Positions 33,374 to 41,805 of a stretch of DNA of 54,034 nucleotides are shown piece after piece (the first letter of the stretch is position 1; each line of letters begins with the position of its first letter). The stretch is taken from positions 1 through 54,034 of the forward strand of contig JANQPV010000008.1 in the NCBI GenBank assembly GCA_028285305.1, given 5' to 3'. The notes beneath the pieces were generated by a model. It saw only the letters and a program-made list of their open reading frames with translations. It searched no databases and was not told the origin of the DNA. Made by a program: the position numbers and the translations under genes. This DNA is from Alphaproteobacteria bacterium. GTDB taxonomy: Bacteria > Pseudomonadota > Alphaproteobacteria > SMXP01.

Positions 33374-33742
33374 GCCCCACTCACAAATCACAGCAGAAAT
33401 CTATCATAATTGGTGATCGTTGCAAATGGCGTGCGCGGACGCTCACGAAAACGCGAAGACGAGCCGGATGTGACCGTTTGCATGCGGTATGGGATTAGTT
33501 AACTGAGCCGTACGAAGACTAAGTACCGACAACCATAGCGCCTACCGAGAACAAATGGCGCCTATTTGTTGCGAATTTTTTTCGCGTGATGTTGCGAAAT
33601 AAGTTATGCCTTTGAAATCATTGTATAAAAGCATGAGGGTGGTGGCCCCTCCCGAACGGCAAGTGGCCTAGCAAATTCAACGGCTTACGTGTTGCGAAAA
33701 CCAAAGCAGCCCAACGGATTTCCTTGAGCCCAAAGAGGTCTG
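33374..33742. other. Noncoding region at the left boundary of the tRNA-Leu insertion
   Basis: No gene is visible in these 369 bp. They hold a perfect inverted repeat (aacaaat 33550-33556 / atttgtt 33564-33570) and four copies of the word GTTGCGAA (33568, 33591, 33691 and 33742) spread around the left direct repeat at 33640-33654. Confidence 0.6.
33640..33654. repeat. Left direct repeat (attL-like) of the tRNA-Leu island
   Basis: 15 bp tggtggcccctcccg, identical to the 3' end, including CCA, of the tRNA-Leu gene at 36882-36896. Identity stops at both ends. This is the arrangement left by site-specific integration into a tRNA 3' end. Confidence 0.75.
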
Positions 33743-34428
33743 TTGCGAAAGCGTGAAATGGCCTTCGACCTCGAAACCACCGGCCTCGATCCCAAGAAAG
33801 GCCATCGCATCATCGCGGTGGGCGCAGTCGAACTTGTGGACCACATCCCCACCGGCAACCATTTCCACGCCTACATCAATCCTCGCCGCTCTATTGATCC
33901 CGAAGCGCTGAAGGTACACGGCCTGCCCTCCTCGTTCCTTCGAACGCAACCGGTCTTCGCCGAGGTGTGGCCCAAGCTCAAAGAGTTCATCGGCGACGAT
34001 CCTTTGGTGATCCATAACGCCGCCTTCGACCTTGCCTTCCTGAAAGCCGAAATAGACCGCCTCGGCGAGACGCCATCGACACCCTGCATATGGCGCGGCT
34101 GAAGTTCCCAGGAGCGCATGTGACGCTCGATGCTCTGTGCACGAAGTTCAAAGTCAACAAGGACGCCCGGTAGCTGCATAGGGCGTTGGTGGATCTGCAG
34201 CTTCTGGCGCACGTCTTCACGAATTTGAAGGGTGGGAGGCAAGCCGATCTTTTGTTGGCTCAATTGGACAATGATTATTCAGATATGAGCAACTATACGT
34301 TGGTGAAGCGTGCCACTATCAGAGTTCCGCCCACAGGGGCAGAAGTGAAAGCACACCGAAAATTCCTCTCCAACAAGGTTCCGAACGCCAAATGTTGGGG
34401 ATTCTTCGAGCGGAAGCTTCTCTTGTAA
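33743..34428 (+). pseudogene. dnaQ: DNA polymerase III epsilon subunit-like gene, frameshifted and interrupted
   Basis: The first part encodes the 3'-5' exonuclease ExoI motif FDLETTGLDP and ExoII FIGDDPLVIHNAAFDLAFL. At about 34070 the frame is lost next to an apparent deletion of several codons. The continuation IDTLHMARLKFPGA...TLDALCTKFKV is read in another frame from 34075. An in-frame TAG at 34171-34173 then replaces an expected residue just before the ExoIII-like LHRALVDLQLLAHVF, and the homology runs on to GGRQADLLLA and the C-terminal tail. Two independent lesions make this a pseudogene. It starts with TTG behind an AGAGG ribosome site. The chromosome presumably has an intact dnaQ elsewhere. 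Confidence 0.85.
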
Positions 34429-34473: not shown

Positions 34474-35466
34474 TTAAAGAGACTTCATCTCAGCCCCTTC
34501 GACTTGGGTTTGCTGACCGGTTGATGTCGTATCCCTTTTATCCGGATCGCGCGTCGTCAGCATTGTCTTCCCGTTGAAGGTCGAAGCGTTCAGCAGATCT
34601 TCAATTTTAAAGCCTCTAAACAATTCTTCGAATTGTTGTTCTGAAAACAATCCAAATCCGTTCAAATTTTCGGTTTTCAGGTCTGACAAACTACCCAGAC
34701 CGTCGATCAACTTTTCATTCTCGTGCCGCCTAAATAGTATCCTCCCACACATCATCATGGATCCTGTGTGACGTCTAAGCAAAAGGCCTACAATGTTGTC
34801 CATCGGCTCTTTACTATAAGAAAGACCAACGAAGACTGGTGTTCCTCCGTGCCGTTCAGTTCCAACCAAGAAATTGTTCTCATCGCAACAAACAACTTTA
34901 CCTCGATAGAGGTTCGGAAGGTTGGCCTCAGGCCTAACAGATGTATTCGGAATAATGTCTTCAAACTCTAGGTGGGGGGGGTTCGCGTCCTCGTACGGCT
35001 TGATCCAGGTGAGACCAGTAATCACCGGTTCGCTTATCGGGTTGGTAGTATGATGGCGCAATCGCGCAAAGCGATACAAACCACTTATGTTTTCGCTTAT
35101 CTCCATCAGATCCTCGCGCGTAACTTTTCGCACACCAGGAAAAACCTCTCGCAACGGATCATCTTTGGACCGATCTTGACGGGAGATTCCCTTGAGGCAA
35201 TCTAAGGCGAGTTCGACCCAAGGCGGCATGACATCGATGTTGTTTTCTGCTATTTCGAGCAACCTCCCGCGAAATTCTTCGTGAAGATGGTCATATGCGC
35301 CGTCCTGAAGAAAATGACGGCGAAACTTACTCCCGTCAATCACTCCTCCCTGCTTTCCACTAGAGTCGAGGACAATTGATCTGTAACTTACGTCGCCGTT
35401 TGACTGGTAGCGGAGAAAGTCGAACACGCACTGAAAAGCCCCAAGTTCCTCAGTCGTGAGAGCCAT
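34474..35466 (-). CDS. Unrecognised 330-residue island protein
   Basis: I do not recognise the family. The start at 35466 (MALTTEELGAF) follows AAGGA at good spacing; an open extension to 35553 lacks support. The N-terminal about 120 residues are helical and charged. The middle (about 130-270) looks like a beta-rich sensor-like domain (ISGLYRFARLRH, SEPVITGLTWIKPY, LPNLYRGKVVCCDENNFLVGTERHGGTPVFVGLSY and GSMMMCGRILFRRHE). The C-terminus is polar. There is no membrane segment or signal peptide. Two palindromic operator-like sites lie 80-116 bp upstream. The gene is more AT-rich than the surroundings. Confidence 0.7.
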   Translation of the reverse strand: MALTTEELGAFQCVFDFLRYQSNGDVSYRSIVLDSSGKQGGVIDGSKFRRHFLQDGAYDHLHEEFRGRLLEIAENNIDVMPPWVELALDCLKGISRQDRSKDDPLREVFPGVRKVTREDLMEISENISGLYRFARLRHHTTNPISEPVITGLTWIKPYEDANPPHLEFEDIIPNTSVRPEANLPNLYRGKVVCCDENNFLVGTERHGGTPVFVGLSYSKEPMDNIVGLLLRRHTGSMMMCGRILFRRHENEKLIDGLGSLSDLKTENLNGFGLFSEQQFEELFRGFKIEDLLNASTFNGKTMLTTRDPDKRDTTSTGQQTQVEGAEMKSL

Positions 35467-35546
35467 TTCATAATTCCTTAAGATATTAGAGCGATTGGAC
35501 CAAGCAGCGGTAATATGGCAATATCTTCGCGGATTCCACATCATAT

Positions 35547-35560
35547 TTGCCAATTCGGCC
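35547..35560. promoter_or_regulatory. Operator-like palindrome, imperfect copy
   Basis: ttgccaattcggcc is an imperfect match to the perfect palindrome 20 bp to the right, centre to centre (two helical turns). Confidence 0.5.
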
Positions 35561-35565
35561 TTGAA

Positions 35566-35582
35566 ATTGCCGATTCGGCAAT
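35566..35582. promoter_or_regulatory. Operator-like perfect palindrome
   Basis: ATTGCCGA-T-TCGGCAAT, 8-bp arms around one base, between the divergent unknown gene and the ribbon-helix-helix gene. With the imperfect copy it forms a tandem operator, probably for a regulator of this island. Confidence 0.6.
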
Positions 35583-35721
35583 TTAGACTGAGACTTGGAA
35601 CAGATAGAGGGATTGTTTCAAAAATGGGGGCTCTGTTGATTACATTGAGTTCGAGTCACATGTCAAACGTTTCGCGGGGCCCAACCCGAGCTTGTCCGAG
35701 ATGCGATAGTGGAGAAGGATA

Positions 35722-35955
35722 ATGTCGGCGACCGACCTGAAACTTGTTGGGTTTCGAGTACCTGCGGAAATCAAAGAGGATCTTCAAAAGGAGGCTGAAA
35801 ACGCTGGCTTCTCTACTGTAGCATCTTATCTTCGATCAGCTTGGCGCCTGGCTAAAGCGCGACCAGATCTTTTGAGCCAAATTGAAGCCGAAGAATTGGA
35901 CTACCAACAAAACCGCCCCATGAGCTGTTATCATCCAATGGCTCGGCGCGAATAA
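35722..35955 (+). CDS. Ribbon-helix-helix DNA-binding protein
   Basis: A 77-residue protein with a clear RHH fold: strand KLVGFRVPAEI, helix KEDLQKEAENAG, turn FSTVA and helix SYLRSAWRLAKA, then an acidic and polar tail. Proteins of this kind are antitoxins or small repressors. There is no toxin gene immediately after it; instead a palindrome, a promoter and a structured noncoding stretch follow. A ribosome site AAGGA lies close to the ATG. Confidence 0.75.
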   Translation: MSATDLKLVGFRVPAEIKEDLQKEAENAGFSTVASYLRSAWRLAKARPDLLSQIEAEELDYQQNRPMSCYHPMARRE

Positions 35956-36272
35956 TTGCTACGCGTTACGCGTATCTCTTCTTGACAACGATTAACTGTG
36001 TTCTATTGTAACATTACTCTTTAATGGGTAGTGCTTTGTTTGCGTGGTGCTCTATTGAGGGGTGCAGGGGAAGTCGGATTGCAGCCGACTTCACACCTGC
36101 TGTTTCACTGGTGAGAATTATGCTACCACACCAGGAAAGACACTTATCTAATGTTTCGTCGGGTTAAAGTCAACTCGGCCACGCTTTCCTGCGGTTTTTC
36201 TCACCTTTCGCCAACCGCCCCAATTCCGCTAAATCGGCACAATTGGGGCACTTGCTCGAAAGCGAGGAAGCC
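35956..36272 (+). promoter_or_regulatory. Palindrome, promoter and structured leader or small RNA
   Basis: No gene is visible in these 317 bp. In order they hold a palindrome tacgcg-tta-cgcgta (35960-35974), a perfect -35 TTGACA (35982-35987) with a weak -10 about 16-17 bp further (36004-36010), and a strong bulged hairpin (gcagg 36064-36068 and aagtcgg 36071-36077 pairing with ccgactt 36085-36091 and cctgc 36096-36100). A second hairpin (ctggtg 36108-36113 / caccag 36129-36134) follows. The transcript would run into the small membrane protein gene, so this is either its structured 5' leader or an independent RNA. Confidence 0.5.
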
Positions 36273-36596
36273 ATGACAAATAATGTCACAGGTCCCGTCG
36301 AACAGATCATTGTGTTTGTCGTTTCCGTTTTCACCGGTGACGGCGGCCACTACGTAGGCATGTTCGCTGATGAAGGTGGTGTTCAGCACCTTTTCCTAGG
36401 TGTCGTTGTATACGTTTTTCATGAAAACATTCGACGGGCGTTCAACACGCTAGTGCGCGGTATTGCGCGGGCTGTACTCAGATGCACCAAGAAGTTACGC
36501 CAGGCCATGAATGCTTGGATCGTCGCTGCAACTGTCTTCTGCTCCGGTGCGATCTGGACATGGTTTTCGTATCCCTGGATGATCGTTCTGGGATGA
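36273..36596 (+). CDS. Small hydrophobic island protein, function unknown
   Basis: A 107-residue protein with a hydrophobic N-terminal stretch (IIVFVVSVFTG), a second one (VQHLFLGVVVYVFH), a basic amphipathic middle (RRAFNTLVRGIARAVLRCTKKLRQ) and a C-terminal membrane helix (WIVAATVFCSGAIWTWFSYPWMIVLG). I do not recognise it; a holin-like or small membrane-effector protein is possible but unsupported. The ATG at 36273 follows GAGG at good spacing. A strong hairpin ends the unit 8 nt after the stop. Confidence 0.55.
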   Translation: MTNNVTGPVEQIIVFVVSVFTGDGGHYVGMFADEGGVQHLFLGVVVYVFHENIRRAFNTLVRGIARAVLRCTKKLRQAMNAWIVAATVFCSGAIWTWFSYPWMIVLG

Positions 36597-36881: not shown

Positions 36882-36896
36882 TGGTGGCCCCTCCCG
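36882..36896. repeat. Right direct repeat (attR-like) within tRNA-Leu
   Basis: 15 bp identical to 33640-33654; it forms the 3' end of the tRNA gene, so integration left the tRNA intact. Confidence 0.75.
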
Positions 36897-36968
36897 GACT
36901 CGAACCGGGACGATCTTGCGATCCCAGGATTTTAAGTCCTGTATGTCTACCAATTCCATCAAGGGGCC
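36882..36968 (-). tRNA. tRNA-Leu (anticodon TAA)
   Basis: An 87-nt gene with encoded CCA. The acceptor stem GGCCCCT pairs with AGGGGCC, the anticodon arm is CAGGA-CTTAAAA-TCCTG (anticodon TAA, leucine), and the T-arm is CCCGG-TTCGAGT-CCGGG. A variable arm fits a class II tRNA. Its 3' 15 nt are the right-hand copy of the island direct repeat. Confidence 0.95.
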
Positions 36969-40246: not shown

Positions 40247-41149
40247 GTGAGAGTCCCACAGGCCGACCAGTTGGGTCGAACGCTGCGCAACCGCATACTA
40301 CTCGTTGCCTGCGCATTTTCTGTTTTGGGCGCGTTCGCGCCTATCGCTTCAGCCGAACCCTTCGTTTTCACTGCCATTCCTGATCAAGATGAATCGCGCC
40401 TCGAAGCGCGGTTTGGAAAAGTCTCGCATTATCTGGCCCAAGAGCTGGGTACGGAGGTCAAATACGTTCCTGTTAAGTCCTATGCCGCCGCCGTTACGGC
40501 GTTTGTCAACGACCAGGTCCAACTGGCGTGGTTCGGCGGCCTGTCCGGAGTGCGCGCGCGGCTTCGCGTGGAGGGATCCCGGGCGATCGCTCAAGGCTAT
40601 GAGGACCAGTTCTTCGAGACCTACTTCATCGCCAACTCGAAGACCGGCCTGACGCCGTCGGATGACTTTCCCGTCTCTATCTCCGAGCGGACGTTTACGT
40701 TTGGTTCAAAGGGCTCCACGTCGGGCCGTTTGATGCCGGAATTTCACATCAGAGAAAACTTGAGCCTGACGCCGGAAGAGGCTTTCGCGCGCGTCGGGTT
40801 CAGCGGCGATCACTCCCGAACAATTGCTCTTGTGCAGTCCGGCGCCTTCGAGGTGGGGGCCGTCAACTTCAAGGTCTGGGATAAGGAACTCGAACTTGGC
40901 ACAATTGATCCCTCCAAAGTCCAAGTGATCTGGAAGACCCCTCCCTATCCGGATTACCAATGGACCATTCGCGGCGATGTGGACGAAACGTTCGGCGACG
41001 GATTTTCCGAGCGCGTGACGGATGTCCTCCTCGGCATAACCGACAAAGAGATCCTGGATGCGTTTCCGCGCAGCAAGTTTGTCCCTGCGCAAAACGAGGA
41101 CTATACCCTCATCCTTGATGTGGCGAAACAGGTGGGTCTGATCGAGTGA
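40247..41149 (+). CDS. PhnD-like ABC transporter substrate-binding protein, putative selenate/oxyanion type
   Basis: Exported 300-residue binding protein: signal peptide (ILLVACAFSVLGAFAPIASA), then a PhnD/phosphonate-type periplasmic fold. The stretches AIPDQDESRLEARFGKVSHYL, YVPVKSYAAAVTAF, VQLAWFGGLSGV, TFGSKGSTSGRLMPEF and RVGFSGDHSRTIALVQSGAFEVGAVNFKVW match the subgroup annotated as putative selenate transport, a call that rests on genome context in the literature and not on direct biochemistry. The start is GTG with GAGG about 10 nt upstream. It overlaps the ATPase gene by 4 nt. Confidence 0.75.
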   Translation: MRVPQADQLGRTLRNRILLVACAFSVLGAFAPIASAEPFVFTAIPDQDESRLEARFGKVSHYLAQELGTEVKYVPVKSYAAAVTAFVNDQVQLAWFGGLSGVRARLRVEGSRAIAQGYEDQFFETYFIANSKTGLTPSDDFPVSISERTFTFGSKGSTSGRLMPEFHIRENLSLTPEEAFARVGFSGDHSRTIALVQSGAFEVGAVNFKVWDKELELGTIDPSKVQVIWKTPPYPDYQWTIRGDVDETFGDGFSERVTDVLLGITDKEILDAFPRSKFVPAQNEDYTLILDVAKQVGLIE

Positions 41150-41805
41150 CCTTGATCGCTCTGGACCGCGAAGCCATCGGATATAATGGCGGCGCGGTCT
41201 TGACGGATGTGAGTCTTGCCATCGAAGAAGGACAAACCCTCGTCTTTGTGGGGGAAAGCGGTGTCGGTAAATCCACGTTGCTTTCCCACCTCTATCGCCT
41301 TGTCGGCAGGCACGCCGCACTCATCCCACAAGACTTGGGATTGGCGGATCACCTTTCCGTCTTTCACAATGTCTATATGGGCCGTTTGGACCAGCACGGG
41401 TTTTGGACCAATCTGCGCAATTGGATTTGGCCGGCGGAGCCCTATCTGAGCGATGTGAGAGGTGTGCTCAAGCATCTTGAGCTCAACGACAAGATCAACA
41501 CTCTTCCAACGGATCTTTCCGGCGGTCAACGGCAGAGGGTCGCTATTGGGCGCGCTCTCTACAAAGAGGCAAGTCTCCTCATTGCGGACGAGCCCGTCTC
41601 AGCGCTTGACGAAAAGCTTGGCCGAGAGGTTCTTGAGCTGCTCACCTCAAAACATCGGACATGCCTCATTGCGATGCACGACATTGATGCCGCGACACAA
41701 GTGGCTGACCGGCTGATCGGCTTGAAGGCAGGCAAAATCGTGTTTGATCGGCCGCCAGAGGATATCTCAAGCCATGACATGACGCACCTTTATGAGCGCG
41801 CATAG
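41146..41805 (+). CDS. ABC transporter ATPase of the same system
   Basis: A 219-residue ATPase with Walker A VGESGVGKSTLL, Q-loop ALIPQDLGL, signature LSGGQRQRVAIGRAL, Walker B SLLIADEPVSALDE and H-loop IAMHDIDA. The start is GTG overlapping the binding-protein stop. The stop abuts the permease ATG. Energises import by the upstream binding protein and downstream permease. Confidence 0.92.
   Translation: MTLIALDREAIGYNGGAVLTDVSLAIEEGQTLVFVGESGVGKSTLLSHLYRLVGRHAALIPQDLGLADHLSVFHNVYMGRLDQHGFWTNLRNWIWPAEPYLSDVRGVLKHLELNDKINTLPTDLSGGQRQRVAIGRALYKEASLLIADEPVSALDEKLGREVLELLTSKHRTCLIAMHDIDAATQVADRLIGLKAGKIVFDRPPEDISSHDMTHLYERA

Follow-up and report, generated by a model that had tools for sequence, protein, structure and literature searches.

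The closest described counterpart of the locus analyzed here is MobC, a ribbon-helix-helix (RHH) protein of the IncU plasmid RA3, which has been reported to repress its own expression through an imperfect palindrome placed between the -35 and -10 elements of its promoter (PMC4175270). RHH77, a 77-aa RHH-like protein encoded in the present locus, resembles MobC of RA3 in having an RHH-type gene, a palindrome between the -35 and -10 of its candidate promoter, and inverted repeats nearby. In contrast, MobC comprises 176 aa and is encoded beside oriT and a relaxase gene, whereas RHH77 has no accompanying relaxase and faces a divergent orphan neighbor, p330, that it is presumed to regulate. RHH77 also shows a weak resemblance, below the gathering score, to the NikA-like mobilization proteins (PF21983) and to RHH_5 (PF07878), although the adjacent relaxase gene expected for a MobC/NikA mobilization factor is not seen in the island that holds the pair. 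With the tRNA-targeted elements of tyrosine recombinases this island shares a far boundary that repeats the 3' end of the tRNA, clustered arm-like repeats and a lower GC content; unlike those elements, it carries no integrase gene, and its arm-like repeats flank the core on both sides.

The tRNA-Leu island

The window, meaning the whole stretch of 54,034 nucleotides that was analyzed, contains an intact tRNA-Leu(TAA) predicted by Aragorn at 36882-36968 on the (-) strand, whose 3' end is the insertion point of the island. A copy of this 3' end, the putative att site and outer boundary of the island, lies at 33640-33657 on the (+) strand and is identical to 36882-36899 at 17 of 18 positions. The two copies of the tRNA 3' end enclose the foreign DNA, as in a tRNA-targeted element, and the 18-bp repeat bears out the tRNA island proposed in a first-pass annotation made from the sequence. 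The DNA between the two repeats spans 3.2 kb at 50% GC; the same annotation had described an AT-rich island gene, a label that holds only in a relative sense (48-50% GC versus about 55%). On the (+) strand, two direct repeats of TGTTGCGAA are found to the left of the att-like core (33567-33598, at 33567 and 33590) and two more, putative integrase arm sites, to its right (33690-33749, at 33690 and 33741). The motif occurs five times in the window against 0.88 expected, with four of the occurrences within 183 bp of each other, and the arm sites of tyrosine integrases usually form such clusters of short direct repeats. As the TGTTGCGAA repeats flank the core left and right, another element, now partly deleted, may have lain to the left, and the region 33567-33749 may retain arm sites from two integrative elements that adjoined each other.

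Next to the core lies a broken DnaQ-like exonuclease remnant (RNase_T, DNA polymerase III epsilon; 33743-34428, (+) strand; PF00929, E=6e-24). Its reading frame breaks off past 34102, and an in-frame TAG follows downstream; its dnaQ relatives show 45-53% identity. The codon usage of this 3'-5' exonuclease gene is host-like, unlike that of p330. Inspection of the island ORFs together with a family search revealed no integrase-like ORF between the tRNA-end repeats and no relaxase-like ORF in the island. For an empty-site comparison, the four nearest of the genomes searched, all from other genera, offered no usable counterpart to the genes flanking the island, and the whole-island DNA, compared with plasmids, phages and its own genome, matches only itself. 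On this view, p330 is a probably real orphan gene in a decayed mobile island and would be under local control.

Two further features lie between RHH77 and the tRNA. The stretch 36016-36206 on the (+) strand is rich in inverted repeats and folds strongly (z=-3.98), ending with a terminator-like hairpin and a T run, and is preceded by a promoter-like TTGACA-16-TATTGT at 35982-36009. It has no Rfam match. Windows overlapping it also rank near the top in a 10-kb folding scan, and the inverted-repeat-rich DNA extends over 36016-36270, possibly representing a small RNA or an origin-like element. The strongest predicted RNA folding in that scan is at 41061-41300, where an ABC transporter ATPase gene starts, with a z value of -5.8 on one strand and -4.9 on the other. 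Downstream of the folding stretch, a 107-aa orphan ORF (36273-36596, (+) strand) is accompanied by an SD-like GAGGAAG, and its C-terminal segment is hydrophobic; it has no family match, and the plasmids searched hold no relative. Elsewhere in the window, a cytochrome P450 gene (31495-32712) has 41 matches in its own genome, marking the organism as a very P450-rich alphaproteobacterium.

The p330 gene and the search for relatives

The p330 gene occupies 34474-35466 on the (-) strand, with its ATG at 35466, as defined by the ORF list and the coding signal, and encodes a 330-aa orphan protein. An SD-like AAGGA is located immediately 5' of the ATG. The mean codon log-likelihood is -0.02 compared with -0.21 +/- 0.035 for base shuffles, about 5.5 SD higher, and GC1/2/3 are 0.55/0.38/0.51. 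The frame stays open for 393 codons, which exceeds the longest chance frame in 500 copies of the island generated with a first-order Markov model (mean 160, maximum 330). The 330-residue ORF of the first-pass annotation is present as described, with the coding signal and SD-like motif in its favor. At 0.51, the GC3 of p330 lies below the 0.60-0.68 of ten native neighbor genes, and this difference together with the coding signal indicates a gene that is probably real but imported, with foreign codon usage.

The description of p330 as an unrecognised gene agrees with our searches, which gave no family match in Pfam, NCBIfam, PHROGs, PADLOC or PDB sequences. No relatives were found in 72,556 plasmids or 50,697 phages, nor in overlapping draws of 96, 385 and 398 genomes covering its own relatives, the class and the phylum. 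Viral contigs, queried with the whole protein, the N-terminal part and the middle part, and GTDB contigs, scanned twice, likewise held none, in scans that require an exact 8-residue match and detect close relatives only, so that a distant family could escape them. The one match that did emerge (E=1.7e-4) covers a 68-residue stretch within a histidine kinase, EnvZ-like judging by its sequence, and was set aside as chance. An AlphaFold2 model built from the single p330 sequence with no alignment reached a pLDDT of 32, too low to yield a fold or to bear out the beta-rich, sensor-like middle suggested in the first pass.

By eye, the middle of p330 carries short motifs in an order similar to that of the C-terminal 'GYY..Y' domain of alphaproteobacterial HTH_XRE regulators. 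A profile of this domain was constructed from real members, and the profile tests did not support the lead. The hhalign probability for p330 against the profile was 0.4%, and the glocal profile score of -6.9 equals that of p330 shuffles (-6.3 +/- 3.5). A local alignment with the most similar-looking regulator gave p=0.04, which is not evidence because several tries were made. The frames behind weak domain-only matches to this sensor-domain lead were read and contained no recognisable relative. p330 is an orphan, and the layout around it is of a known kind.

Palindromes and the divergent promoters

Two palindromes lie between p330 and the divergent RHH77 gene, 81-118 bp upstream of the p330 start codon. 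The perfect one, AAATTGCCGATTCGGCAATTT (35564-35584), is the sole palindrome with arms of at least 10 bp in the 54-kb window and the longest there, where 0.1 would be expected; with 10-bp arms and a total of 21 bp, it is longer than the 17 bp originally described. The imperfect copy, TTGCCAATTCGGCCT (35547-35561), matches at 12 of 15 positions and is located upstream of the candidate p330 -10. The centers of the two are 20 bp apart, in agreement with the two helical turns noted in the first pass. By chance, about 4.6 such 12/15 copies are expected in 54 kb, which scales to roughly 0.01 for the 60 bp to each side. The genome-wide operator search suggested by that annotation was run on the 5.4-Mb genome and returned one exact site, with one extra site (14/15) on another contig when one mismatch was allowed. 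As the operator is nearly unique in the genome, it looks like a local switch rather than part of a regulon. Among viral contigs the operator was found in 19, many of them sharing one repeated prophage sequence context; the tandem layout is absent from these 19, and no relative of p330 or RHH77 adjoins the sites. A literature search with the operator halves yielded chance co-occurrences only.

RHH77 (35722-35955, (+) strand), the candidate repressor, alone among the island proteins shows signs of a DNA-binding fold. Residues 7-40 match NikA-like PF21983 weakly (E=0.0021; 18.6 bits, short of the gathering score of 27), and the score against RHH_5 PF07878 is 13.4 bits, below the cut-off of 26. 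The predicted model, with a pLDDT of 68, shows an extended N-terminus with isolated bridge residues 8 and 11, followed by helices at 15-27 and 33-46. In a Foldseek search with this model, the RHH proteins NikA, Arc, ParD and CdbA appear among non-significant matches (E>=2.5), with an rmsd of 1.3 over 30 columns for the NikA N-terminal fragment, which is also not significant. Searches for relatives of RHH77 gave none that were convincing. A consensus scan placed a candidate RHH77 promoter, TTGAAA-17-TAGACT, at 35561-35589 on the (+) strand, and AAATTGCCGATTCGGCAATTT fills its 17-nt spacer. On the opposite strand, a candidate p330 -10, TATGAT (35540-35545), was read from the sequence and is not in the consensus-scan list; its -35 is weak. 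Judged by these elements, the layout is that of a presumptive autorepressor with a divergent passenger gene. The proposal that the operators regulate p330 is only partly sustained: operator-like palindromes do lie upstream of the gene, but the perfect one suits the candidate promoter of RHH77, the gene facing p330. Similarly, the view of p330 as an accessory gene under regulation in a tRNA island holds up in outline, but the main switch gene is probably RHH77, a neighbor that had been overlooked.

The spacer palindrome, the weak site before the p330 -10, the fold hint in RHH77 and the MobC precedent together lead us to infer that RHH77 represses both itself and p330. We tentatively favor, with somewhat less than even confidence, a reading in which p330 is cargo of a decayed tRNA-Leu element and is controlled locally by the divergent RHH77 through the two palindromes. 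p330 would have been acquired horizontally as a cargo gene in a 3.2-kb integrative element, now decayed, at the tRNA-Leu 3' end. RHH77 would bind the perfect palindrome between the -35 and -10 of its own promoter, leading to self-repression, and would also occupy, less tightly, the weaker copy that lies within the p330 promoter at a distance of 20 bp, resulting in cooperative repression of p330. Release of p330 would follow once the RHH77 level drops, for example when the element enters a new cell or RHH77 is titrated. The binding of RHH77 to the palindromes, the repression, the cooperativity and the role of p330 as accessory cargo are all inferred. The exact placement of the perfect palindrome in the 17-nt spacer, the in-phase copy 20 bp away and the near-uniqueness of the operator in the genome, which a local autorepressor would predict, support the RHH77 model, whereas the below-cut-off family matches, the non-significant structure matches, the poor p330 -35 and the lack of an integrase or relaxase count against it. 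No homologous locus in which the gene pair and the operator travel together was found in the searches made.

Alternative readings and significance

The divergent layout, with operators 81-118 bp upstream of the p330 start, would also suit a regulator and its target, and p330 itself could be the DNA-binding regulator, with an unrecognised N-terminal DNA-binding domain and a ligand-sensing middle, controlling itself and RHH77. This is unlikely, as p330 has no HTH or other family match, the HTH-regulator sensor domain failed the profile test, and a better DNA-binding candidate is encoded opposite. A reading of p330 as an open frame that is spurious or in decay, like the rest of a degenerate island, is suggested by the broken dnaQ-like gene next to it, by the absence of a homologue from everything searched and by chance frames that reach 330 in the Markov copies; we regard this as quite improbable given codon usage that scores about 5.5 SD higher than base shuffles, GC1 above GC2, the SD-like motif, the upstream operators and an open frame of 393 codons that exceeds the longest chance frame.

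Plasmids commonly use RHH proteins for copy control and partition. The palindromes could accordingly be former plasmid or phage maintenance sites, either iterons or a partition centromere, with RHH77 being CopG/ParG-like and p330 a replication or partition protein; the iteron-like 20-bp spacing, the RHH type of RHH77 and the inverted-repeat-rich stretch 36016-36270 would fit. We give this little credence, since there are just two sites and one half-site, and p330 has neither a Rep or Par match in Pfam, NCBIfam and PHROGs nor relatives among the plasmids and phages searched. Similarly doubtful is a role for p330 as an undescribed anti-phage defence component silenced by RHH77. The island location, the upstream operator-like sites and the orphan sequence are compatible with such a role, which the first-pass annotation had entertained, but it finds no support in PADLOC, the island contains no defence neighbor, and no catalytic motif was recognised in p330. 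It also appears very unlikely that p330 founds a new protein family, kept in check by the divergent RHH repressor through a double operator, and makes up, along with a structured RNA and the small putative membrane protein, the compact cargo module of a new kind of minimal mobile element.

Among the main sources of orphan genes are small tRNA islands; in this one, the presumptive local switch of p330 and RHH77 can be read straight from the DNA in an arrangement that is otherwise ordinary for mobile DNA. If RHH77 does not control p330, the decayed island just adds another gene to those with no assignment; if it does, the pair would offer a way into the effect of an orphan cargo gene once it is released.
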